This document shows, in pieces, positions 1 through 46,790 of a stretch of 64,000 nucleotides of DNA (positions within the stretch are counted from its first letter, which is position 1; each line of letters starts with the position of its first letter). The notes under the pieces were generated by a model that saw only the letters and a list, made by a program, of their open reading frames with translations, was not told the DNA's origin and made no database searches. The translations under genes and the position numbers were made by a program. Source of the DNA: Linnemannia hyalina (Eukaryota; Mortierellomycota; Mortierellomycetes; Mortierellales; Mortierellaceae); NCBI GenBank assembly GCA_019671135.1, contig JAHRHY010000004.1:2976001-3040000 (forward strand). The letters are read 5' to 3'.

Positions 1-1485
1 GGGAAATTCAGTAATCCTCGAGAAATTGGTGGGTTTGGCGATGGCCGAGTACACATGATCGGCATCTTGCAATGAGAGTGCGGTGCCAAGAATCACCAGT
101 GTTGCCCGCATGTTGCTCAGCGTTGCGGATAAGGGTGTGAGGAAACCACGACGGAACTTGGATTGGATTTGGTTCTTTGCTGTCGAAGAGGGCATCTCTG
201 TTGATCAAAGCGGATGGTGAGATGAGCTTTTCGGACAAGATTCCAGTAACCGTAACTTGAGCCTCGTCCAGGGCAATCACCAGTCCAAGTCGTTTGGAAA
301 CAAGGATAGACTGAAGCTTGGCTTGGACTTTGCTGAGCATGGCTTGGATTGTGTTGTGGTCGTACTCCTTCAATTTGTAGACCAGGTCGCCAATAGTGAA
401 GGCACCTTTGGTGGTCTGTTCACGGAAGAACTGCAGGGGTTCTAGATCAGGGTTGTCGTCGAGGAGATGCTGAAGAAAGAGCAGCCTTGCAAGGAATTCG
501 AGCTTGACGCGTTCCCCTGCTAGGGCCTTGACTTCGGAATCGATGTCCTTTGCGCACTGCGAACGGCCTTGATTCCTGTGAATAACGGACCGGTACATGC
601 TCTCAATGTCTTCTGCAAGCGTGATAAAATTCGGGTCCTTGAAGCCGGGAGAGATGGTGGTGCTCGGGATGCAACAAACACAATAGATCACAAAATGCTT
701 GCTCGCGAGGTCAACTACAGTCGCAGTCTTTCCAGATCCAGATGGAGCAACCATAGCTACTACGCGACGGTCACAGTATTTGCCGATGTCATCCTCCACA
801 ATAGAATGCAAGGTTTCGCCGTCGCTCGTCCTTGTCAGCTTGTCCAGCTCAAGTCCCAGCATCACCAGCTTGATGTCTCTTGCTGTTTCACCATGCGGAA
901 GAGTCCTCTTGAAAAAGGGTCCTAGTGCTTCATTCTGGAAAGCCTCAACTTCCATTGGATCAACAGAGGGGGTGGTAGGGCGAAGCTGGATGTCATTGAG
1001 AATGACTTCCAGTTCCTGCTCGAGGAGATCCTTCGGAATAGACTTGAGCTGTGGAGGGGAGGGACGGGCAGGGACAGGTGCATGGACTATGTTGGTGCAA
1101 TTGGATGAGTGTATCAAGTTAGTACATGTGTAATAGGCAAGCTCACGAGTAAGGTGACGATATAGCACGCGTGTGCATTACCTTGAGGAGGTCGCTGGAC
1201 GATAATGTAGGTGTTGTCGTCGGGACTTGCGGCAAACAGCGTGGAGAGGAGTGCTCTAGGGTTGTTCAGCTCCGTCTTGTCGTGAATGGCTCCATCGTCA
1301 TGAATGGAGACACGGCTGAGGGAGAGCTTGTTCGCATCAACATCGCGGAAATCGTTGGGTTTCTTGCGTAAGATTGCGCCTTTGAGATCGCCGATGGTCT
1401 TGGTTGACTCGATCTCGACAGGGAACGCGTTGGTGGTGGCCTCTCCGTCGACAAGACAGAACAGGTTCAGAAGGTTGTTGGACAT
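1..1485 (-). pseudogene. Crinkler (CRN) effector with P-loop NTPase, frameshifted, 3' end outside window
   Basis: Start is the ATG at 1485. Exon 1 (1485-1182) encodes the ubiquitin-like CRN header (LFCLVDGE near the start, IIVQRPP at the end). A GTAATG donor follows at 1181, and exon 2 resumes at 1086 after an AACATAG acceptor. Exon 2 has a Walker A motif (APSGSGKT, about 760-720) and a Walker B-like VIALDEAQ (about 280-255). CRN proteins are secreted or intracellular effectors that pair a header with NTPase and nuclease modules; this copy's C-terminus lies beyond base 1. Between about 200 and 150 the natural reading moves by one base (RGFLTPL appears in another frame), so the copy is probably inactive. 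The leader (1486-1858) is strongly CT-rich on the coding strand and is cut off by a transposon at 1863. Family assignment is strong; loss of function is inferred. Confidence 0.85.
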
Positions 1486-1862
1486 GGTGTTGTGAAGAGT
1501 GAAAGGATGGCAAGTGGAAGGGGAAAGGTGATGGTTGTAAACGGAGTAAGGGTTGTGGAGAATGTGCGGGGTGTATGAGGGCAAGGAGTGAATGAAAGAA
1601 AAAAAAAAGAGAAAAGGATAACAGAAGGTGTGGGGTTAAAAGGAAAAGGGCTGGGGTCAAAAGGAAAAGTAAGAAAGGATGGAAAACTATGGCGATAGGT
1701 GTGGAAATAGCAATAAGGGCGGTGAGAAACACACTGACAGTAAAGTCGAACAGAGGAAAAAGGGGAAGAGACAAGATGAGGGAAGAGTGAGGAAAGGAAT
1801 CGAGTGATGGTAAAGACGGTGAAGAAAGCGCGTGGTGGAAAGGAAAGGGCGTTGGAGAAGCT
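1486..1862 (-). promoter_or_regulatory. CT-rich leader of the first Crinkler gene, truncated by a transposon
   Basis: On the coding (minus) strand this stretch is rich in C and T, like the leaders before the other two CRN start codons (about 10030-10189 and 38570-38721). The TTCGGTGACGTAA element found upstream of the intact CRN genes is not present here. The RecQ/DUF6589 transposon begins at 1863, so the distal promoter may have been displaced. Confidence 0.4.
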
Positions 1863-2834
1863 CTGAACCCAACCACCTCGTCAGTTTTTGCTGACGAGGG
1901 GCTGGGAGGGACAAAATCTCCCCCTTTACTATGGGGTCTCCCTTCCCGTCCTACTTCCTTTTTTGGACGAGATTCCTTTTTTGGAACGACGTGGCCTCAG
2001 ACCTAGTTTTGAATCCTTTCATTTTACGTGGGATGGAATCTAACCCATTCCTTCCCACGTAAAGTGAAGGGCAGGGTTCGAGAGTACTACTCAGACCAAC
2101 CTGCTCCTTGCTTCCTCTCCGCTCCTTCGCTCCTTCACGTCTTCCATAAAGTCATCTCTTACATTGAATCCACCCTGCTTCATTCTCAAGTTACGCGTCA
2201 ACATGTCAAGTAAAAGACAGCTCAGGTACAAAATGCACATCTCAAGCACGTTTCCATTTCCTGGCACGCGTTCATCAGAAGCATCTGAGCATCCGAGCAT
2301 CCGCTGTTCAGTTTGTCTCAACTCTTTCTCGCTCTCTTCTTCATCCTCCTGTACAAAAATAATAAAAAACGCTCGGGGTGGATTCTGCTATAGCAACATT
2401 CCGCCCTACAATGGGACTCCGGCCACGCCAAGTAAACGCACTTCCGGGGCTTCCAGGGTAAGACACAGTTTGATATAGTGCTCGGCGAGTCTTTGTTGTT
2501 GTGCTTGTCACGTTTTCTAACTTACTGGTTTCCGACACGGTATAGCTTCAAGGCATAGGCGAGTTTGGCGTCCTCAACTTTAACAAACCTGATACACAAT
2601 CCCCAGGAGGTGCCAGCCAAGTGAGTGAATATCAGTTACTGGTATGAACGCGATGTTTTGTTTCCAAGCATATTTCTAATCGTTGGCGCTTGGCGCTTTG
2701 CATTTGCTCCGCATAGAATACTCCGAGAAAAACCGCTAATACTCTTCTTTCGTTGGGTGGAGCCCGTTCTCCTCTGGAAGGATCGACTTCCTCCTGGGTC
2801 TCCACGACATTCAACGCCGCAGAAGACGCCGCGA
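1863..2834 (+). repeat. Left TIR of the RecQ/DUF6589 element
   Basis: Matches the reverse complement of 8161-9129 with only a few indels, for example extra T residues near 1965. It ends abruptly inside the third exon, just after the codons for AAEDAA. It contains the promoter region and the first coding exons of the helicase gene. Confidence 0.9.
1876..1899. other. Perfect subterminal hairpin, left end of element
   Basis: CCTCGTCAG and CTGACGAGG form a 9-bp stem with a 6-base loop, 13 bases inside the element end. The same hairpin is at 9093-9116 in the other TIR. Subterminal palindromes are common recombinase-binding sites, but a role here is inference. Confidence 0.7.
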
Positions 2835-5183
2835 ATCCTTTCTGGGCGCCCGCGCAACCTTCTCAGCCAAGTCAAGAGACACCATTCCGAATTCGCTCCG
2901 CATTTATTCCAAATCTGTCTACCAACTCGCCTGGACAGTCTCCTGGTTCCCCAACATCATTATCGTCGACAGCACAAGCTCTCTCATTTCATGCATGGGA
3001 TGTTTTATCGCCGGCACGAATTGACTCTTCATCTGAAGATTCTGACTTCTCGCCAGACACGTCACCAACCAAGCCTACCATCTCGCCAAAAAATTCTGAA
3101 GCAACGCCAATACGCTCCGTTGCAACGCCGACTCAGCCTATCCCCTCGCCTATGCAGTTCCTTTCGTCGCCATCACAAGCTGTGCTAGAGAGACTTATAC
3201 CATTGCCAGACAAAGAAAACGAGGATAGTGACGATGTGGTAAGTGTTTTTGAAGATTGATTCAGTCACTTTTGCCTTGCTATTCAGTCTTTTTGTTAACA
3301 TTTTGCATGCGTAATCCTGTGCATCTTTTAGGGCCCCCAACTTTTTTCCAGATCAAAAGCCATTAGCCTTTGCCGAGAAGTTTTCAACTGTACTCCAAAA
3401 GAGCAGCAACTAGAGGTGTTGAAACACATAGCGCAAAAGTCCGATTGTGTGTTAATTGCTCCCTGCGGCTGGGGTAAAACACTCGCATTCTTTCTTCCTA
3501 TGGCATACTGGCCTCGCAGTATCACTGCTGTCATCTCGCCACTGATAGCTTTGATGAATGATCAGCAGCAGGTAGTTCATAAGTGGACCCTTCCATGTAT
3601 CATACAGCCAGAAACAACAGTGTCATTTTTAACCGCCTTTTATCTTTGTACTTTGCCACTCAATCGTACAGAAGCTGGACAAGGCCCAAATACCTTACGT
3701 CGTTCTCTCCGGCGACAACTCTGATGCCATTAATGGCAATACGATTAGACGCATATGTGAAGGCGAGTTCAGAGCAGTCTTTATGTCGCCCGAGATCATT
3801 TTTGGTGACAGCCCTACTTCGAGGTTGGTACGAGGGCTTTGGCAAGACACGCGCTGGCGGAACCTGTTGCTTGCCATAGTGGTGGACGAGGTCCATTGTG
3901 TTGAAAAATGGGGCAACAAATTTCGCCCGGAATATGCTCGTCTCGGTGAGCTTCGCATTTGGTCGCCTGGAGTTCCGTTTGTGGGTGTCACCGCGACACT
4001 CACTGCCGATGCGCTCACTCAAACTATGGACAAACTCTTCCTGTCCAAAGCCAATGTTCTTCGTGTGCGAGAGATTCCCACAAATGTTCGTCTCGAGGTT
4101 CACACGCAGCCCAAGGATGCCAAGAAGGGTCTCAATCGTCTGTTAGGCAAAGACAAGACGATTATTTACTTCGAAAAAATCTCTCTTCTCATGGATGTCT
4201 TCAAATATCTAACGAGCGAGAGACCCGATCTACGGGATAAGCTGGGTGTTTACTTCTCCACCTTAACATCCCAATACAAGGAGGCAACCATGAGCAAGTT
4301 TTTGGAGGGTGGCATCCATGTCCTGCTGGCTACCGAAGCTGCAAGCATGGGTTGTGACATACCCGATGTGATTCAAGTTATTCAGTACGGGTGAGTGATA
4401 TACGCAAAAAAATATGAAAATAGAGCAATCAGTAGGGAACGAATGCCCTGATCTAATATGTCTTGACATTTTTTTGGACCATGTAGCTTTCCAAGGGATA
4501 TACCGAGTTTGGTTCAGCGATTTGCACGAGCAGCACGAGATCCCAAGATCCAAGGCTTTGGAATCCTCTATGCACCACCGATCGGCAAAACTTCCCCCTC
4601 AGACGAAAACGTGCGCGAGTACCTTAGGAACCAAGTAGGAGGGTGTCTTTGGAAAACAATAGACAAATTGTTTGAGAATGACGCTCGTACTTGCAACAAC
4701 AGCTGTTCTGGATGCTTCAAGGTTGATCGTCCCGTTCCCACCACTATTTGCCATGACACCAGACCGAGCAACAGAAGGAGATGGCCGAGCCGTTCGGAGG
4801 AAGAGAGACATACGGCCTTGAAGAGACTCCAGGAGTGGAGAAAGGAGGCGTACGAAAGATGGGTGAGCAGTCAACCTTACAGGGTGGGTAGAGAAACGTG
4901 GATCCTGCCGGATAATGTGGCCAAACAGCTGTCGCAAAAATTCTCTGGGGCCAGAACTGCTACGGCGGTCGAGGCCATCGCTTCCTCCTGCAATTGGGCT
5001 CCCCTTGCAGAGAATTCGTGCGGCGAGGTCGCGCAGGTCCTTGACAAGCTCAACAACGAGATCGATGCACGCCGCGGATCAGGTAGCCAGACGACGGCGG
5101 CATCTGCGCTAGACCAGCTGGAGGACGGCTCTGACGGCGATAGGGAGGGAAGCGATGGTGAGGAGGACTTACTGGAATCATAG
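2203..5183 (+). CDS. RecQ-like DNA helicase of the transposon
   Basis: Proposed exons: 2203-2457, 2546-2620, 2717-3238, 3332-3571, 3672-4390, 4487-5183, all with GT-AG borders and kept in frame. The first three exons start in the TIR and give a Ser/Thr/Pro-rich N-terminus; ATG 2203 is the best upstream start but is not proven. The helicase core has motif I APCGWGKT (about 3457-3480), a DEVH box (about 3882-3893), motif III-like VTATLTADA, and motif VI QRFARAARD (about 4512), as in RecQ-family 3'-5' helicases. A Cys cluster CNNSCSGC resembles the RecQ zinc subdomain. The C-terminus is acidic, and no HRDC domain is visible. Within the element it probably assists strand processing during transposition or repair. 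It converges with the DUF6589 gene, leaving about 230 bp between stop codons. Confidence 0.85.
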
Positions 5184-5414
5184 TCAGATCCATTGGAGGC
5201 CGCACGTGTGATTGATCAGCCTCTCCGCGAGCGACCGCCTCCCGCAGATTGAAATTGTTTTTCTGTAAGTATCAGTCGTCCACTTTATTTCGTCCGCATG
5301 GCGCAACCCGAGGAATCACTCGCTTCTTTCTACCATTCTTTCTCTAAATCCATCCTCGTCTATTTCCTCCTTCCTCATTCAATTATCATAGAGAGTAACA
5401 AAACCAAAATATAT

Positions 5415-8400
5415 TTAATTAATAACGTTTTCGAGTGCCTCCGTCTCTTCTAAATCCACCGCATCCTCCTGCCTGTGCCTATCCAAAAATCGTACAATAG
5501 ATCCCCAGGCCATCTTGTCTCCACCATGACCCTGAAGATCGACCACCAGGTCCCCTTGATCGCATTGGCCGGACTTGCATAAAATGCCACTGTGTCGGAA
5601 GTACCTCTGAATCTTGGAGATGTCCGATGCAGTGGATGGTTTCTGGTGTTTGGTGCTGTTGGAGCCAACTCCGACCTCTCGCTCGAACATCCACGAAATG
5701 TCCTGAAAAGTTCTGATGTTGGTGGATATTGCATCCCTCAGATATTCCCAGGTCATGTTGGATCCTTTCGATGAAAAGATGGACTTGATGAGATAGTTAT
5801 GATTCTCTTGAAGCATGTCGGTCGCCATCCATCCGCCTTCGAGGCCTTTGGGGTTGACAAGCATGCTAGAGAGGACCCTTGTCGTCCACTCATCCGTCCA
5901 CAGATGGCGAATACCATAGAGGAGACGCAGCAGTTCAAGCGCATAGTTTGTGTTGCCTCCTCCATGCATCATCAACGTAATGATCGGCAGCAGGTGACTG
6001 ATGCGACCAATGTCGCCGGCTTTGACGGCCTCGGTTAACTCGATGTGCACCGCTACATCGCGCAAGAAAAGAAGGGCGTTGATGTTGACGGTAGTACAGG
6101 GCAGACCAAAGAGCGACGGCGAAGGCAAACCACAGAAGGAGTTGGTGATGGTTTCTGTGAATCTCGGAAGATCAAGCTCGTCTGATGCACCAACTTCCCG
6201 CAGGGACTCGCAGAGTGACTGCACCATCGCATCGAAGACAATTCTCAGCAACTCGTCCGCGGCTTTAAACTCCTGCTTCTCCTTGGTCAAGCGCTTGCGG
6301 CCCAGCAAAATAATAATTGAGGCAAGAGAACCTGGGAGTAGTGGGGAGCCAAAATGTGTCCTGAAGATGGTGCCGCACAGGTTCATACCAAGGTGGAAGA
6401 GTTGGAGGGTCGGGTGTACCCATGCAAGGCTGTGGTATGGATCAGTATCGACAATGCGGTGAATCTTGAGAGTTAGCAACCTGGACACAGTCATATGGTC
6501 GCCGGCAACGATGGTGTTTTTGGGATGTGCAAACCAGCTTTCCGGCAATTGAAGGCCGACCTGCGTGATTCTTTCCAACACCGCCAAATTGCCAGCAATG
6601 GTCGATTCGTCGAGCCTCATGGTCTGCAGCGGGAACAGAGCAGTCTTGTTGACATTGAGCTTTTTGATAGGCATAGCTGGAATAGCAGCGGCAGTGGATC
6701 CCTCCGGCGATGATCGCACAATGGCATTGGAGACGTGCGATCGGCTGACCTGTCGAAACACCTCCCAGTCGAATTTATTGGGAAGGAACAAGGCAGCAAC
6801 GGGGTTCGGCCTCTCATCCTCCGGGCGAAAGAGAGCAGGTGGTGCAGTGGGAGGCTGGTCCTTGTCGGGGGGGAAGAGAATGACGGTGGCAGCGGTACCA
6901 TTGTCGAAAATATCGCGTTTGTCGGACCTTTGGTTGTGGTGCTTGTTAGCGATGTTGAGGTTGTCGTACACGATGTACCAATCAAACTTCTCCACCGCTT
7001 CCTTGACTTGCTCCCGAGCGTCCTTGGTCAACGATCGCAGCCCATTCTGGACTTGGCTGTAGGAGATCGAAAGCCCGAGCCCAGAGAGGACCTCGAGTAC
7101 TCTCTTTGGACATCCTGTGCAATGAAGAAAGAGCCCCATGATGGTCTGGAAGGCGTTGACCTTTTGCGACGACATGAATATCAGCATCGCCGCGATGCAT
7201 CCCCGAACAGACGTAGGCTTTTGAGCCCTGCGACGCTTGCGTGACTTGCGCGAGAGCTTCTGATCAGAAATATCTTCCTCGAGGAGACCTTTCAAGAACC
7301 GTGTCAAATACTTGGCGCCTTCGGCGTACCGATGAAGAAAGCGAAAATCGTCGACTAAAAAACCTGCGACCTTCTGCCCAGTCACCTTCGTGTGTGGTAG
7401 CCGCCAGTCTTTTCTGATCTCGTCGTTTCTAAGATGCTTTAAAGTTCGGTTGACGACGACATCGACGGCACTATTGACAAAATCCTCTTCCCATTTGGTG
7501 CCTTGCAGCGTGCTGTCCCAGATCTTGAGAACTCGCTCGGCACCCTTGCTTTCGTGGAATACCCCAGTCCACTGTTTGACAACTTCATCTTTGGACTTGA
7601 ACAACTCTTCCAAAAAGGTGGGAAGAGTCATATTTTCATCCGTGATGCAGTTCAAAACTCTAAGTAGTTTCTGCGGAATAGTGGACTGGAATATATTCAG
7701 ATTTTAATAAATTTAGATAGGAAATCGATGCGGACATAATGCGTGTACTTGTAAAACTGATCTACTTACAGGCTTCTTGCGAGTCGAGGTTGGCGTCTGC
7801 CCATTTAGTCCAGTTGTGTAGCTTCCTATTGAAGGTGAATCTGGCACCCGAGATGACATGGACTTTAGCACATATTTCTTGGCGGTAATATATACCTTGG
7901 CAGTTAACAATATCATGCGCATGGCTCGCCTACCTCGATCGCCGAGGTACTTTTGCTCACTTTCAGCTGCCCAAGCACTGCGCGTCTATTCTGAGTATAC
8001 ACAGCAGGTTATATGTCTGTCCAAAGCCCATACACTTTGACCTGGTCTAAATGCGAGGGGATGGGATCGACTTCTTACGCTCTTAGGTGTTGGCGAACCG
8101 AACGTCTCATGCGATGTATGGACAAACTCGCGTATCTCTAAACTTGGGCCTGTTGGCGTCTTCGCGGCGTCTTCTGCGGCGTTGAATGTCGTGGAGACCC
8201 AGGAGGAAGTCGATCCTTCCAGAGGAGAACGGGCTCCACCCAACGAAAGAAGAGTATTAGCGGTTTTTCTCGGAGTATTCTATGCGGAGCAAATGCAAAG
8301 CGCCAAGCGCCAACGATTAGAAATATGCTTGGAAACAAAACATCGCGTTCATACCAGTAACTGATATTCACTCACTTGGCTGGCACCTCCTGGGGATTGT

Positions 8401-8793
8401 GTATCAGGTTTGTTAAAGTTGAGGACGCCGAACTCGCCTATGCCTTGAAGCTATACCGTGTCGGAAACCAGTAAGTTAGAAAACGTGACAAGCACAACAA
8501 CAAAGACTCGCCGAGCACTATATCAAACTGTGTCTTACCCTGGAAGCCCCGGAAGTGCGTTTACTTGGCGTGGCCGGAGTCCCATTGTAGGGCGGAATGT
8601 TGCTATAGCAGAATCCACCCCGAGCGTTTTTTATTATTTTTGTACAGGAGGATGAAGAAGAGAGCGAGAAAGAGTTGAGACAAACTGAACAGCGGATGCT
8701 CGGATGCTCAGATGCTTCTGATGAACGCGTGCCAGGAAATGGAAACGTGCTTGAGATGTGCATTTTGTACCTGAGCTGTCTTTTACTTGACAT
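5415..8793 (-). CDS. DUF6589 protein, candidate transposase of the element
   Basis: The long 3' exon (7685-5415) is one open frame of about 757 codons, with an acceptor at 7687/7686 and a donor at 7769/7768 joining it to an upstream exon ending RKKP. Mirrored TIR exons (8793-8539, 8450-8376, 8279 to about 8040) supply the same N-terminus as the helicase; one intron border between 8040 and 7865 is unresolved. The core matches fungal DUF6589 proteins: VYDNLN (about residue 230 of the large exon), VAGDHMTVSR (about 385) and LLQENHN (about 617). These three conserved acidic sites could be a DDE-like triad, which is inference. A basic patch RKSRKRRR lies near residue 140. The frame is intact with no stops. 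It is the only candidate for the DNA-cleaving enzyme in this element. Confidence 0.8.
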
Positions 8794-9129
8794 GTTGACG
8801 CGTAACTTGAGAATGAAGCAGGGTGGATTCAATGTAAGAGATGACTTTATGGAAGACGTGAAGGAGCGAAGGAGCGGAGAGGAAGCAAGGAGCAGGTTGG
8901 TCTGAGTAGTACTCTCGAACCCTGCCCTTCACTTTACGTGGGAAGGAATGGGTTAGATTCCATCCCACGTAAAATGAAAGGATTCAAAACTAGGTCTGAG
9001 GCCACGTCGTTCCAAAAAAGGAATCTCGTCCAAGGAAGTAGGACGGGAAGGGAGACCCCATAGTAAAGGGGGAGATTTTGTCCCTCCCAGCCCCTCGTCA
9101 GCAAAAACTGACGAGGTGGTTGGGTTCAG
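8161..9129 (-). repeat. Right TIR of the RecQ/DUF6589 element
   Basis: Inverted copy of 1863-2834. Positions mirror as about 10996 minus x through the coding part, so splice sites and reading frames are preserved and serve the DUF6589 gene on the minus strand. Confidence 0.9.
9093..9116. other. Perfect subterminal hairpin, right end of element
   Basis: Mirror copy of the 1876-1899 hairpin: 9-bp stem, 6-base loop, 13 bases from the right end. Confidence 0.7.
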
Positions 9130-9133
9130 AGCT

Positions 9134-9473
9134 TCAAAAAGAAGATCCCCATCTACATCACCACACCAATGGTTGGTCCGAAAGATATCAGAGAGGTCGT
9201 CCGGTCGGGTCAAGCTCGGTCGAGGAATCAATCTCGTTCAAGACGACCGGCTTGTGCTTGTTGGCCGAGACTTGGATGGAGAAGCGCCTTCGAATCGGAT
9301 TCGATTCGAATGCGCACAAACCTCTTGTAAACATAAGGATTCGAACAGAATGCGATTAGATGCCCTAGCCAAAAGACGAGCTTGTCTGCAGCAAAGTCGC
9401 CATTGATAGAGAAGGCTTGAGATAATTCCTCTCCATCAACAAGACGGAAAAGGATCAGACAATTGTTGGTTAT
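9134..9473 (-). pseudogene. Crinkler header fragment, start codon lost
   Basis: The minus strand reads a CRN header (FRLVDGE, then KPVVLNEIDS and DDLSDIF in shifted frames). The position equivalent to the initiator is ATA instead of ATG (9473-9471). A TTCGAA-rich insertion (about 9290-9345) and at least two frame changes disrupt it. It ends at the transposon border at 9130. It lies head-to-head with the intact CRN gene starting at 10190. Confidence 0.7.
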
Positions 9474-9836: not shown

Positions 9837-10189
9837 ATCCTGTTTCATGCCCACGCCCTTTAGCACTTTCCACGCTTTCGTCATCGCCTTTACAATCACT
9901 CGCTTCCTTTCACTGTCACTCCCACACTCAGCCTAATTACTGGACCACCTTCCCTGCATCGTTTTTATCGTCTCTTCCCCACCTTTTTCTACTGTTCGAA
10001 TTTACTCTCCGTTTGTTTCTCAACGCCCATTTCCACACCTTCACTGCATTTGCCACCGTTCCCACTCCCTTTTAATCCCTTGTCTTTCTTTCTTTTCCAT
10101 CAACCATACACTTTCTTTCATCCTTTCGCCTCTTTTTTTCTTTCACCCCTTGGCTTCACTCTTCTTTTCATTTGGTTCTTCGCAATACC

Positions 10190-13142
10190 ATGGCCGACAA
10201 TAGCCAGAGTCTGTGGTGTATTGTTGACGGTGACCCCATGTTGAGAGCCTTCGAACTGGTCATACCATCGAGAGAGACTACTTTTGGTCAACTCAGAAGC
10301 TACATTCATCTCAGCAAGCCTATCTGGTTTAAGGATCTGGAAGCAGAGGATCTCATCCTTTGGAGCGTCTCGATCCCAATCACAAAAGACAACGAGGACA
10401 CTCCCATCCTACTCAAAGATGTCCCCCCCAGCGACAAGTACAAGCTTGGCCCGGCCACGCGTCTCTCAAAGGTGTTCCCTGAGGAGCTGCCTGAAGAGAC
10501 AGTCCACATCATCGTCCAGCGACCCCCGCCAGGTAATCAAACGCGCTTCGCTCTTATTCATACCTTGCGCATGAGCTTGTTCCTCTTGCTAACCTTAATT
10601 CTCGTGTCCTGTTGCACTAACATAGTCCCTGTGCCTGTACCTGTTCGTGTCTCCACTGCTCCGTCGGATATTATTCGTTCTGGCTCGCCCGCCAATGGTA
10701 ACCGATTTTTACATTTGCCATTCGTCAGTATTCTACTAAAAGTAAATTCAAGTCTCTAACACTCTGCTCTTTTTGTCACCGTTATCCACTCAAAGGCATT
10801 ATGGACGTCATCAAGCAAATACAGAGTACCCTCATTCTTCGCGGCCGAAGATCAGATCCACGACCTCTGTTATCCAGAACTATGCCCTTGCAGGAACGTT
10901 CAATGGATAAGGCTCTCGATACAGTTCTGAAAAATGTCCAAACATGCATGTCTTGGCGAGAAGACAATCAAGTCCCAAAGGCAAATAGCTCATTCCTTGT
11001 GTGCAGCGGAACAGCCGGCATTGGTAAGGATGCTCATTTCTTTAGAGTCGCCTGACAGTCTTTTTGGTATCAAACGTGTTAATGACTCCAGATCAAATCC
11101 ATAATCCATTAGGGAAAACGCGTTACGGACGAGAGCTGTACAGAGCCTTGCGACTTCGACTCTCAGAAAAAGCCAAAGCCAACGACGTCGATTACGCTCC
11201 TCACTTCTACTACATGCTGCTCGACTTCAGCAAGGACGTTAAATTGAATCGGACCGATGCCAGCCTTGATACCGGAACCATCCTTGCCTTGCGTTTGGCC
11301 TATTATCATTTCTTCCAAGGCAAATACTTCACATCATTTGAAGATTTCCGCCATCAAGCTGTCGAACACATTAATTTCTTTACGGTCAGCAACGTCATTC
11401 TCACCATTTGCAAGGATTTGGAGCTAAATGAACAACGACCATTGTTCCTTTTCCTTCACATTGACGAATTTCAGCTGATTTTCGATCATCGCTGGAAGGG
11501 AACGCCTAACGGCCACCGTGCATCCCTACCTCAAGCTGGGATTCGCCTGCCTGGGGACAAAACCGAGTGTCACACACCGCAGGGCCTCTGTCTGTTCCAG
11601 GATATGATGCGCACCCTAGGAGACTTCATGAGCGGTACGTTCAGGCCTCATATGATCCAGACCTTTCTCTCGGGAACCGCTCGGCGGGAAGTGACTATGG
11701 CAGCGCAACCGACGTCTTACACCTTCAAGTTCCTCAGCTGTCCAACACTATCCCTGGGAGCATGCTACGACACCATGAGCCATTTCACCACGCTCGCCAA
11801 TGTCCACCACTGCGAGTGGATGCCAAAGATGGCGTTTCTTTACTTACTATCGGCCACCGACGGTCTTCCGCGAGCACTAGAGCTCTTACTGGAAGAGCTT
11901 TTCGGATATCGAGTGGAGAAATGTAAGACTTTTCCAGATGCGCTGCTTCACATCGACATGAACACGGATCAAATTTTCAGGAACGTCGCAAACAATCTCA
12001 ACAACTATTACTCTATCACCGCCTTTGCCCAGACACATGAGGAACTTGTTCGTGCGCTTGTTCATCTCAACATTTTACAGCAACCATCACTGCGCACGCT
12101 CGCCCCATCCAAGCTCTTTCCGGAACTCACCTTGGATGTCCTAGAACGCGACACACATACCATTCTGGAAGAGATAAATGAAGGCAAAGAACTGGTGTTG
12201 GTCCGAATCCCCTTCTTCTTCCTCCACCTCTACAACATAGCCATCGGTGTAGTCCGGAATCGCCTAGGATCCGCATTCTTGTACAACTGGGTTGCGGACC
12301 GCGAATGGAGATTCTTCAAAGGCATGATCGCCGAGTACGAGGCGCTACGCACGAACCTTCTTATCGGTGATGGCCGCGAATCAGCGACTCTCGGGGACAT
12401 CTACCCAGGAGCCATTGGACAAGCAGAGACATTGGGCCGTATTGTCAAGCTCAAGGAGCTATCGATTGTTGAGGCAGCGCACCGATTCCCAGAGTGGGGA
12501 AGACTGACGGTTGGTGAACAAGAACAGGACTGGAGGTCTGGCATTGTGATCAAGAATGCAGATGGTGCGCAGTTCGGAGATGTATGCGTTTATCGTGAGA
12601 AGGCAGACGACAACGATGACAACATCCTTTGTGCGCTACAGGCAAAGAAGCTAGAGAGTCTACTCTCAGCCGCGACCATCCAGAGCGAGCATAACAAAAA
12701 CACAAGGACGATCGAGAGCATACCACATGGATCGATCTTGGAGCAGGAAGGAATCAAACAAGCGCGTGCCATCACTGTCCTTATCACCACCGCGGATATG
12801 TCGGATGACGCTCTTCGAAAGCTCGAGAGTTCGTTTCCCGACGACTGTCTCTTGATCTACCGACGAACTTTCAACAAATTCTTCGGCAACGCATTTAGTG
12901 TACCTATGGCCCTTGCAGTTTCAAAGGAACTCAACTGGAATTTCGCGACTCAGGAGACTCTGAAAAAGAAGCATAGGCTTGGAGACAAGGAGGTGGACCA
13001 AGTCCTCAAGAACATGCCCTACCGCTCGTATGCCGATCTTGTTGAAAAGGTACCTGCAATGGGCTCCAAGAAATTTGGTGAGGAGATGGGATTCTTGCCG
13101 TACCAAGATTTCCAGCCTGCAAAAAGGCAGCGAGTAGAATAA
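10190..13142 (+). CDS. Crinkler effector: header, P-loop NTPase and PD-(D/E)XK-type nuclease
   Basis: Exons 10190-10532, 10626-10697, 10796-11023 and 11113-13142, all GT-AG and in frame. The ATG at 10190 was chosen over 10172 because all CRN copies here start with M(A/S/T)(D/N)N. Exon 1 is the CRN header (LWCIVDGD to IIVQRPPPG). The Walker A GTAGIGKT is split by the 89-bp intron 11024-11112 and forms only after splicing. A Walker B-like FLHIDEF follows at about 11455. Near 12574-12650 FGD...LQAKK fits the D-x(n)-QxK signature of restriction-endonuclease-fold domains seen in CRN proteins. The C-terminus is basic (KRQR), a possible nuclear signal. The proteins are thought to act on DNA in a target nucleus, in a host or in a competitor. 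Intact throughout. Confidence 0.88.
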
Positions 13143-44028: not shown

Positions 44029-46790
44029 TCATTGTGCCAGTGCTCCCGCTGCTGCCGCTTCCAGGGGTTGTGTTCGAGAGTGTTCTGATCCTGCGCCGGC
44101 ACTAGCCATCCAAGGAAGAGATCCGTCCGGAGCCACAGGCTGGAGGTGCTCTGGACGCTGCTGCTTCTCAAGATATCCTCGCACAAGGTTGGCCTTGTTC
44201 TCAGCCGCCATAACGTCACGGTGGTGACAAACGTGGCAGGTTGGGCAAAAGAAACGGCGGAGGGTGACCTGGGCGACGAATAGCCCACAGTGAGGACATT
44301 TCTTGCTCGTATAATACCCATTGAGTCCAACGACCAGGTAACCCAACGACCGTGCCTAATTTGAAGGAAACGGGCAATCATATTTACTATTTTTTGTTTG
44401 TTTTACGGATGACAAGTATTTGCAGGTGTCAATCCTTAATGATATTCTTGAATCAATGGTTACCTTCTGCACAAAAAAAGATAGGAAAGTGGAGTCAAGA
44501 GAGGAGAGTCCACTCCTAATCGAGAACTTGCCCAGTCCTACTCCAATCAAGACAGGGTTTACTGGATCATATCGACGCCCAATACTTCCTCCAACGATAC
44601 CAAGGAGGCGGTCGGCAAGTAATTGGTACTCATACTGACGGGCACGCTCCTTGTCCCACTTGTGGCGTTTGTACAGCTGGTCTAGGCCCGCATAGAACTT
44701 CAATAGTCTCTCCTCGACTCGCCTCAGCTCTGCAGTGTAGTTGATCACACTCGCCCCCTCGCCTTTCAAAGGCGGAAGTTCAGTCTCGATTCTTGCAATC
44801 GTTCGGTGTTCCTCACCCACATCCAGCAATGCCTGCTTCTCGCCCTCCAGCCACCGACGGAAGCGGAATGTTGGTTGATACACCGCCTTTTGTTTCACCG
44901 TCAGATTGTGAAACACCGCCCTTGTTGACACCAGAGGCGAGGTTGTTGTCTGTTGATCTTGAGTTGAAACCGAGATGGGGATGGGAAGAGAGATTGAGAA
45001 TGTTGACGTTGCTGTCGGTTCCACAGAGGTAGCAAAAATCCCTTCCATGCTTGAAGTTACCTGTCGACCTCCTTGCCGTTTCCAGTCCTGAGCGAGTCGT
45101 CCAGAATATCCACAGAGGCGCCAATGACACACGCCTTCCACCGTCCAAAGTCAACGCCTTGATCTCTTCGGGTTGAACTCCTGGCCAATATTTGGTGACG
45201 TCGTCCTTGCTGGTAATGACATTCCTGATCTCGGGCAGGAAGTAATCGATTCCGCCAACAGTCGAAGTCAATCTTGAGGGCAGCCTGTCCTCTGCGATAC
45301 GGCGAAATCGAACATCCTGAAGCTCTCGAAGCTTGAATGCCAACAACTGTATCCTGAACCCGTCGGTCTTTAGAGAGCCTCGGAGGACATATCCCTTCGT
45401 GGCATAGGTAATGGGGTCGAGCCATTCATTCTGGACATCCACCAAGTGACTCCGGATCTGATCCAAGGACCACAGCTTGACCGCAGATCGATGATCTGCT
45501 TGCTTCCGCTGTCGACTTGTGAGACCTTGAGGGGCGACGTCGGCGACAAAGTTCTTGATGATATAACCGGGCTCTTTTCCTGCTATCCATGTGTCAAGGT
45601 CGTTCACTGAGGTGATGGTCGAGTTATCCAACTCGCCCACCCGCACCAATCTTTCTTTCAGCGATGTACGCTTCCAGAAAAGGCTGCAATCTCCCTCTCC
45701 GAGAATGTAAGGAAGGTTGCTGTGAGGAGGTAAGGGGCACAATCCGACGGCTGTTTCCCGTGAGTTTGTTCAAGTAGGGAAAGTTCTCGACGGCGGAAAC
45801 ATCTGGTCGAATTTGAATGTCGACATCTCCTCTTACTATGCCCTTGTCCTTCATGACCTTGAGCTATGCAAGAAATGAAAATAATAAAATAAAATAAATT
45901 AAATAATATTCGCGATGTTTTTTTTTTGTGCGATGAAAGCATAACAGCACACCTGAATTAGTCAAAGACACTTCAGCCCATACCTTATCGTGGAGATCAC
46001 GGCTCCTATGCCCATACACTCGCCTCAGCTCGACAGCCAGCTGACCAGACACAGATCGGACCAAATACGTCGGTGTGAATGGTGCGGTTTCCTGAAGTTC
46101 CCTGCGCGCCCGAAATGGATCATGTATCCCGTCCTTCACCAACCAGACAACAAGCTGATTAGCAACGCCGCCTGCCTTGGAGTTCTCCTTCGGGTAATTT
46201 CCTGAATAGAGATACGTCAGGAAAGAGATTAAGAAGTGGAACTCCTTGTCCTGCCTGTTCGCGACATCGGAGTCGTCGTTCTCCTTGATGCCGCCGGCAT
46301 CCTCCTCATCCTTATCGATATTCGCAGGATTGTCCACTCGCAAATCGACAACAGTATCCCCGCTCCGCCTCCGTGATAGAGTCCTTCTTGCACTGAAGTC
46401 GATATAATTCGGTCATCGTTTGGGGTGGCGTCATTAATTCCAATATAATCCGTCGCTCCTCCTCCACTTTGTCCATGCGATCCCTCAGCATTTCCACGAA
46501 ATGGTCAATAAGACGCTGAGCCTCACGCTTCACGCCCGCAGCCAGCCGTGGGGCCTCCTGGAAACAATCGACTACCTCCTGACGCTCCTTGGTAAGAGCG
46601 TCAGTACCGGCAACTCCGTCCATCACCGCGCGTCTGACGTTCGCACGCACTGTGCCAATCTCCAAAGAAGACGTTGGGTGGCGCCAGTTCATAGACCGCA
46701 CGAGACCATTCTTGTCGAGATCTGCAAGTGATTTCTTCTGAATTCCAGATGAGACTCTGTCGCCCTTCGGTTTGGACTTTTTGATCGAAA
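44029..46790 (-). pseudogene. Fanzor (eukaryotic TnpB-like RNA-guided nuclease), several frameshifts
   Basis: Recognisable from the N-terminal helical region (about 46700-46380) through YATKGYVLRGSLKTDGF (about 45400), the RuvC-I block EEIKALTLDGG (about 45160) continuing one frame over as ACVIGAS, FHNLTVKQKAVYQPTFRFRRWLE (about 44910), LIGVGLGKFS (about 44550), then after an intron (about 44466-44355) GYYTSKKC-PHC...CPTC zinc ribbon and RuvC-III HRDVMAAEN (about 44225), ending EHLQP and a short tail at 44029. TnpB relatives cleave DNA guided by an omega-RNA; Fanzors are the eukaryotic version, carried by diverse transposons. Frame changes near 46350, 45690, 45140 and 45065, and no clear start ATG. 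In the C-terminal motif usually read NE-Y-TSK, the Glu is Gly here. Tail-to-tail with a pogo-like transposase. Confidence 0.85.

Follow-up and report, generated by a model that had tools for sequence, protein, structure and literature searches.

The 64,000-nucleotide stretch of the Linnemannia hyalina genome analysed here (contig JAHRHY010000004.1, positions 2,976,001 to 3,040,000; hereafter the window, with positions counted from its first letter) contains a 7,279-bp mobile element at 1857–9135 that we assign, with good confidence and by published descriptions, not sequences, to the AcademH type of cut-and-paste DNA transposons. Between its two long terminal inverted repeats (TIRs) lie two convergent genes, one for a RecQ-like helicase on the forward strand and one for a protein with the Pfam domain DUF6589, the proposed DDE transposase, on the reverse strand. 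The assignment is made because a DDE transposase, a RecQ helicase and a 9-bp target duplication are the features reported for Academ and AcademH. The window sits on contig C33 of a 51.5-Mb genome, and copies of the element are named below by contig (C1, C2, C33 and so on).

The ends of the element were located from paralogues of the flanking DNA on both sides and from a terminus, GAAGCTCTGAACCC, that recurs in other copies. For the left flank, which has at least 40 matches listed in the genome, 12 loci were extracted, the window itself among them, with the query extended to position 1900; homology ends exactly at 1856 in all nine paralogues inspected, namely those matching to the end of the query (L065 and L068 were left out), and beyond that point they read AGTG(T/C)G(G/A)GAATG. 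For the right flank, a paralogue with 96% identity (C48:42224-42791) starts at 9136, the raw BLAST alignment extending two bases further, to 9134. Since flank homology stops at 1856 and begins at 9136, the element comprises 1857–9135, and the ends at 1863 and 9129 proposed by an earlier reading of the letters alone (the sequence-only reading) have to be moved to these edges. The left repeat (1857–2835, forward strand, 979 bp) and the right repeat (8161–9135, reverse strand, 975 bp) differ only by a TTT/TTC substitution at 2566, synonymous in the splice model, and a 4-nt T-run at 1959–1962, which confirms the near-identical repeats of about 970 bp described in that reading; its two intact convergent genes are likewise recovered, both splice models being open. 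Across the genome, the terminal sequence GAAGCTCTGAACCCA has 29 exact occurrences, or 50 when one mismatch is allowed, compared with 3 for the reversed control.

The element family generates 9-bp target duplications. Among the 50 matches to GAAGCTCTGAACCCA, we considered all 13 convergent pairs of GAAGCTC ends less than 8 kb apart, including the window's pair. Six of them have an exact 9-bp duplication (TGCAAGTTT, CTTCTTTTT, CCTTTTCGC, TTACTAATG, CACAATTCA and CATGCTGCC) and one further pair has 8 of 9 flank bases alike, so that a match at 8–9 of 9 bases is seen at 7 of 13 true end pairs compared with 0 of 156 cross pairs. In the six pairs without a duplication, the number of matching bases out of 9 is 2, 3, 5, 2, 2 and 0, the last being the window's pair, and no exact duplication of 3, 4, 5, 8, 10 or 11 bp is present at any of the 13. 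The AGCT that had been suggested as a 4-bp target duplication is part of the terminus itself (1859–1862 on the left, 9130–9133 on the right); its position inside the terminus, found at 13 of 13 left ends, rules it out, and the same letters are not accompanied by an exact 4-bp duplication outside the terminus in any pair.

Of the copies with GAAGCTC ends and a DUF6589 match, the one in the window is without a duplication, the right ends of C1 and C2 are damaged, and no far end was located for C17; the duplications of this subfamily therefore stem from elements in which DUF6589 gave no match. In two further DUF6589/helicase lineages, gene-bearing copies are flanked by exact 9-bp duplications: CCTAAAAGT at C13:874102-879541, with ends TAGGCTCGACTCC, and GGAAGAAGG at C6:1441010-1447439, with ends TAGTCTCGCTGCC. 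The C21 copy is the C13 insertion duplicated together with its flanks, and the two represent one event with the duplication CCTAAAAGT. For end pairs of the TAGGCTC and TAGTCTC types, flanks were read for part of the set; a mini-element with TAGGCTC ends at C5, whose flanks agree by eye at 6 of 9 bases, and a 689-bp pair at C12 (flanks unmatched by eye) added no duplication. The family is a mobile one with defined ends and 9-bp duplications, in agreement with the earlier view of the element as a DNA transposon.

The DUF6589 gene occupies 5415–8793 on the reverse strand, with a splice model of about 927 aa (exons 8793-8771, 8602-8539, 8450-8376, 8279-8079, 7990-7934, 7877-7770 and 7670-5415). 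Its main exon (7670-5415) matches PF20231 (DUF6589) with an E-value of 8e-90, and AlphaFold2 gave the product of this exon a mean predicted local distance difference test (pLDDT) score of 85.8. In a structure search with this model, DDE transposases and recombinases account for 46 of the best 50 PDB entries listed (VIA-align), the top fold matches being Hermes, the P element and Tn5, together with RAG1. Three acidic residues of the main exon product are proposed as the catalytic triad and are conserved among 59 aligned sequences: D236 (6963–6965), within strand E231-242, is D in 55; D391 (6498–6500), directly after strand E386-390, is D in 58; and E622 (5805–5807), in helix H617-638, is E in 57. 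As the sequence-only reading had proposed, the DUF6589 protein is probably the element's cleavage enzyme, because the model predicts a DDE-like fold, the triad D236/D391/E622 is kept and gene-bearing copies (C13/C21, C6) have 9-bp duplications. The caution due to structure matches of mostly helical models applies here and slightly lowers our confidence. Identity to the Hermes and P element transposases is about 10%.

The closest DUF6589 proteins come from Gamsiella, Mortierella, Podila and Linnemannia, and members of the family are numerous in mushrooms and Mortierellaceae. The third protein search (profile A1) returned 58 proteins, with PF20231 in all but 3, those three being without a Pfam domain. 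By profile, no named transposase relative was found among solved structures up to an E-value of 1; the 59 members together gave nothing convincing beyond DUF6589 among the 25 of 49 Pfam families listed, and no Academ-named Pfam model appeared among the Pfam families listed for the DUF6589 searches.

The partner gene, at 2203–5183 on the forward strand, has an open 779-aa splice model (exons 2203-2225, 2394-2457, 2546-2620, 2717-3238, 3332-3571, 3672-4390 and 4487-5183). The predicted protein contains DEAD (E-value 1.6e-18) and Helicase_C (2.1e-14) domains and matches the RecQ model TIGR00614 with an E-value of 2.9e-52 and 178 bits, a score that falls short of the model's curated cut-off (219.8). 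Among solved structures, WRN, BLM, RecQ and RECQ1 are closest to it.

The association of the two genes recurs in the genome. The Pfam DUF6589 model gave at least 24 matches in 12 places and the helicase exon at least 17 matches; these counts are lower bounds, and the grouping into places is our own. A helicase match lies within 5 kb at 8 of the 12 DUF6589 places (C33, C13, C21, C18, C4, C6, C1 and C2, with C13 and C21 representing one insertion duplicated with its flanks), and the two genes are convergent in all eight. No helicase match was found within 5 kb at C9, C44, C17 and C8; two of these loci, C9:1332429-1336504 and C44:2781337-2785649, are near-identical over 4 kb (99.4-99.95%). Inverted repeats are present at C33, C13/C21, C6 and C18 and in partial form at C2 and C1, and no inverted repeat of useful length was found in the 8.5 kb examined at C4. 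At C18, where the element spans 425599-432952 (locus C18:424900-433651), the flanks, tested over 690 bp per side, are also perfect inverted copies of one another, so this locus may be either a palindrome or an assembly artefact.

C1 (L010, left end C1:338723) and C2 (L009, left end C2:163950) have one common internal deletion, which takes out the first part of DUF6589 and joins the repeat to its last part. Both still have the helicase region, which in C1 contains one stop. This suggests a defective subfamily in which a copy with a defective DUF6589 gene would have moved with help. The proteins of C33, C18 and C13 are widely separated in a tree built with a quick method, in which C13 and C18 form long branches, and the pairing of DUF6589 with the helicase therefore looks old.

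The window copy itself is flanked by DNA from two different sites. Its left 9-mer, GGCGTTGGA (1848–1856), is, as judged from paralogues, derived from DNA upstream of a Crinkler-type gene, a repeated region whose unfilled form would read GGCGTTGGA followed directly by AGTGTGGGAATGG. Its right 9-mer, AAAAAGAAG (9136–9144), belongs to the other site, as judged from the C48 paralogue, where the half-site runs unbroken into TTCACTC, immediately next to AAAAAGAAG; similar sites exist at C3 and C18. The two 9-mers match at 0 of 9 bases. Because the flanks have these separate origins, the window copy has undergone a rearrangement; the simplest events that would give this outcome are recombination between two copies and a deletion coupled to insertion. 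The genes on either side of the element (1114-1635, reverse strand, and 10076-10759, forward strand) both start with a Crinkler N-terminal domain (PF20147), and short stretches around them are inverted copies of one another.

The source reference for the AcademH lineage is reportedly Kojima 2020. Terminal inverted repeats are a feature of the Academ superfamily, and we found them at C33, C13, C6 and C18. In the passages available to us, a list of superfamilies that have a DDD/E transposase includes Academ (PMC9587614, 2022), and the presence of a RecQ helicase in Academ is attributed to Kapitonov et al. (PMC3627910, 2013). Similarly, excerpts describe AcademH as encoding a helicase and generating duplications of 9 or 10 bp, and AcademX as generating duplications of 3 or 4 bp (PMC10045372, 2023), and report that AcademH is present in Basidiomycota, Ascomycota and Mucoromycota with a low copy number (PMC10799480, 2024). 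As far as these excerpts go, the present family resembles AcademH in its DDE-type transposase (here, the predicted fold of the DUF6589 model), its helicase (of RecQ type, as the convergent partner at 8 of 12 DUF6589 places), its 9-bp duplications (at C13/C21, C6 and 7 of 13 GAAGCTC end pairs, and not at the window copy), its low copy number and its host, a fungus from a range that includes Mucoromycota. A possible difference from AcademH lies in its repeats of about 1 kb, which apparently code for the N-terminus of the two proteins. The sequence-only reading had put forward a new class of fungal DNA transposon, which is not supported, given that the combination of DDE transposase, RecQ helicase and 9-bp duplication has already been reported. 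AcademX, whose nuclease is XPG, also has a DDE transposase; no XPG domain was found in the open reading frames of the helicase and DUF6589 genes searched. The 9-bp duplications also differ from the 3 or 4 bp given for AcademX in the excerpt, exact duplications of either length being absent at all 13 end pairs.

An unlikely reading, which still deserves some weight, is that DUF6589/RecQ elements form a separate DDE superfamily that merely resembles AcademH in its RecQ helicase and 9-bp duplications. Consistent with it, no sequence link joins DUF6589 to a named transposase among the matches listed, the comparison with AcademH is one of descriptions, and a search of 5.39 million papers did not turn up the name DUF6589 (subscription papers and databases lie outside that search). 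However, a DDE transposase, a RecQ helicase and duplications of 9-10 bp in fungi including Mucoromycota are, in the published excerpts, the very set reported for Academ and AcademH, and this argues for the AcademH assignment.

The repeats themselves seem to be partly coding. The left repeat carries exons (2203–2835, forward strand) for a predicted 93-aa N-terminus heading the helicase, mirrored at 8161-8793 on the reverse strand at the head of the DUF6589 protein, and GT-AG splice sites would allow the exons of the left repeat to be joined to the helicase gene and those of the right repeat to DUF6589. A splice model with one long first exon was dropped, as its frame shifts in C1 and C2; with a short first exon, the frame is kept in C33, C1 and C2. 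The four repeat exons (279 nt) are in frame with no insertions or deletions in these three copies, and C33 has 61 differences from each of the other two. Both proteins would thus seem, from the splice models, to begin with the same 93 residues. Several caveats apply to such a shared N-terminus. The ratio of nonsynonymous to synonymous substitution rates (dN/dS) is 0.59 and 0.71, indicating weak constraint, and 1.36 for C1 against C2, the values for one helicase exon being 0.50 and 0.48 for comparison; one of the two other frames has a single stop in C33 and C2; and the repeat-exon sequence is not evident in elements ending in TAGGCTC or TAGTCTC. A more elaborate form of the separate-superfamily reading builds on these repeats: we consider it improbable that DUF6589/RecQ elements form their own DDE superfamily in which the long repeats double as promoter and first coding exons, providing a common N-terminal module that might, for instance, recognise the ends and whose copies would be kept identical along with the repeats.

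Assignment to MuDR or the Mutator-like elements (MULEs) is very unlikely. In maize MuDR, long inverted repeats drive a convergent gene pair and duplications are 9 bp, and the present element has the same length of duplication and a convergent gene pair that is probably driven in the same way; however, its partner protein is different, its transposase family appears to be so too, and to our knowledge MuDR is without a RecQ helicase. No MULE or Mutator family was found for the window protein, the 59-member search covering the 25 of 49 families listed, and the top fold matches are instead Hermes, the P element and Tn5. The hAT and P elements have 8-bp duplications, compared with 9 bp here, no Pfam family is common to them and the window protein, and no hAT family appears among the Pfam families listed, despite the fold match to Hermes.

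It is highly improbable that the element belongs to KolobokH, a lineage of Kolobok in fungi that carries a RecQ helicase. Kolobok target duplications are TTAA, whereas those found here are 9 bp of varied sequence, with no TTAA duplication seen at related copies. Excerpts from PMC9587614 describe KolobokH as known only from fungi and mention a red-algal Kolobok whose RecQ helicase is encoded on the complementary strand, an arrangement also seen here; in KolobokH, however, the RecQ helicase lies downstream of the transposase domain, whereas in our element it is a separate convergent gene. Finally, there is next to no chance that the inverted repeat arose by a single duplication event or by misassembly, a case raised by the sequence-only reading and suggested by the missing duplication of the window copy and the inverted flanks at C18. 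For the family it is refuted, since several copies share the same ends and 9-bp duplications, the C13, C6 and C18 lineages have repeats of their own, and the gene pair recurs, always convergent, within the same genome.

Beyond the gene-bearing copies, the same ends also bound shorter and different elements. Six elements of 56-66 bp (L090, L091, L092, L095, L096 and L097) consist of almost nothing but two GAAGCTC ends, and four of the six have a 9-bp duplication (3 exact, 1 at 8 of 9 bases). L011 (C2:1430272-1437617) and L108 (C33:634597-641999) are 7.3-7.4 kb long, share these ends, are flanked by exact 9-bp duplications and are 88% identical over 2 kb; the genome searches gave no DUF6589 or helicase match in either, and two similar-sized pairs on C49 have neither such a match nor a duplication. 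The parts of L011 and L108 that were read contain a gene, now decayed, that is related to the protein encoded at 45134-45809 (reverse strand) of the window. Adjoining that protein, at 44197-44355, is a match to Cas12f1-like_TNB (PF07282), which we take to be the zinc-ribbon family of TnpB/Fanzor, and on the basis of this match and of the relation to the L011/L108 cargo we annotate 44197-45809 (reverse strand) as a Fanzor/TnpB-like gene. PF07282 has 91 matches across the genome; no Pfam domain was found in the decayed L011 and L108 pieces or in the read-through of window positions 44100-46000. Because the decayed gene relates to the protein beside this match, L011 and L108 are apparently non-autonomous elements that carry a Fanzor-like gene. 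According to a passage of PMC3627910, other Mucoromycota have Fanzor1 elements with 9-bp duplications, and these were assigned to MuDr.

TAGGCTC termini are nested about 50-150 bp inside GAAGCTC termini at C2:1430k, C33:634k, C49:1829k, C49:1893k and C17:123903-123954; a nested TAGGCTC terminus is also present at C1:342593, where the outer block is only partial. The arrangement looks as if a new terminus of the same family had been added outside an old one.

We propose that the DUF6589 protein acts as a DDE transposase in which a mostly helical insertion separates the second D from the E. The enzyme would recognise the outer ~30 bp of each end, a length that appears to suffice since 56–66-bp elements of little else exist, four of six with a duplication. 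It would then excise the element and join it to the target with a 9-bp stagger, presumably by the usual DDE chemistry, while the RecQ-type helicase most likely assists transposition by opening or processing the ends or the donor gap. Each long repeat would probably serve as promoter and first exons of the adjoining gene. The shorter elements, down to 56-66 bp, may be mobilised in trans, as they share the same ends and have duplications.

With these findings, DUF6589, a Pfam family widespread in fungi, gains a likely function as a DDE transposase. The element is very probably an AcademH, a group already known, and the useful result is the naming of DUF6589 as its probable transposase. The open genes, near-identical repeats and short derivatives of this family also offer a direct test of why some transposons carry a RecQ helicase and, if true, the common N-terminus encoded by the repeats would be an unusual way for two partners to bind the same ends.

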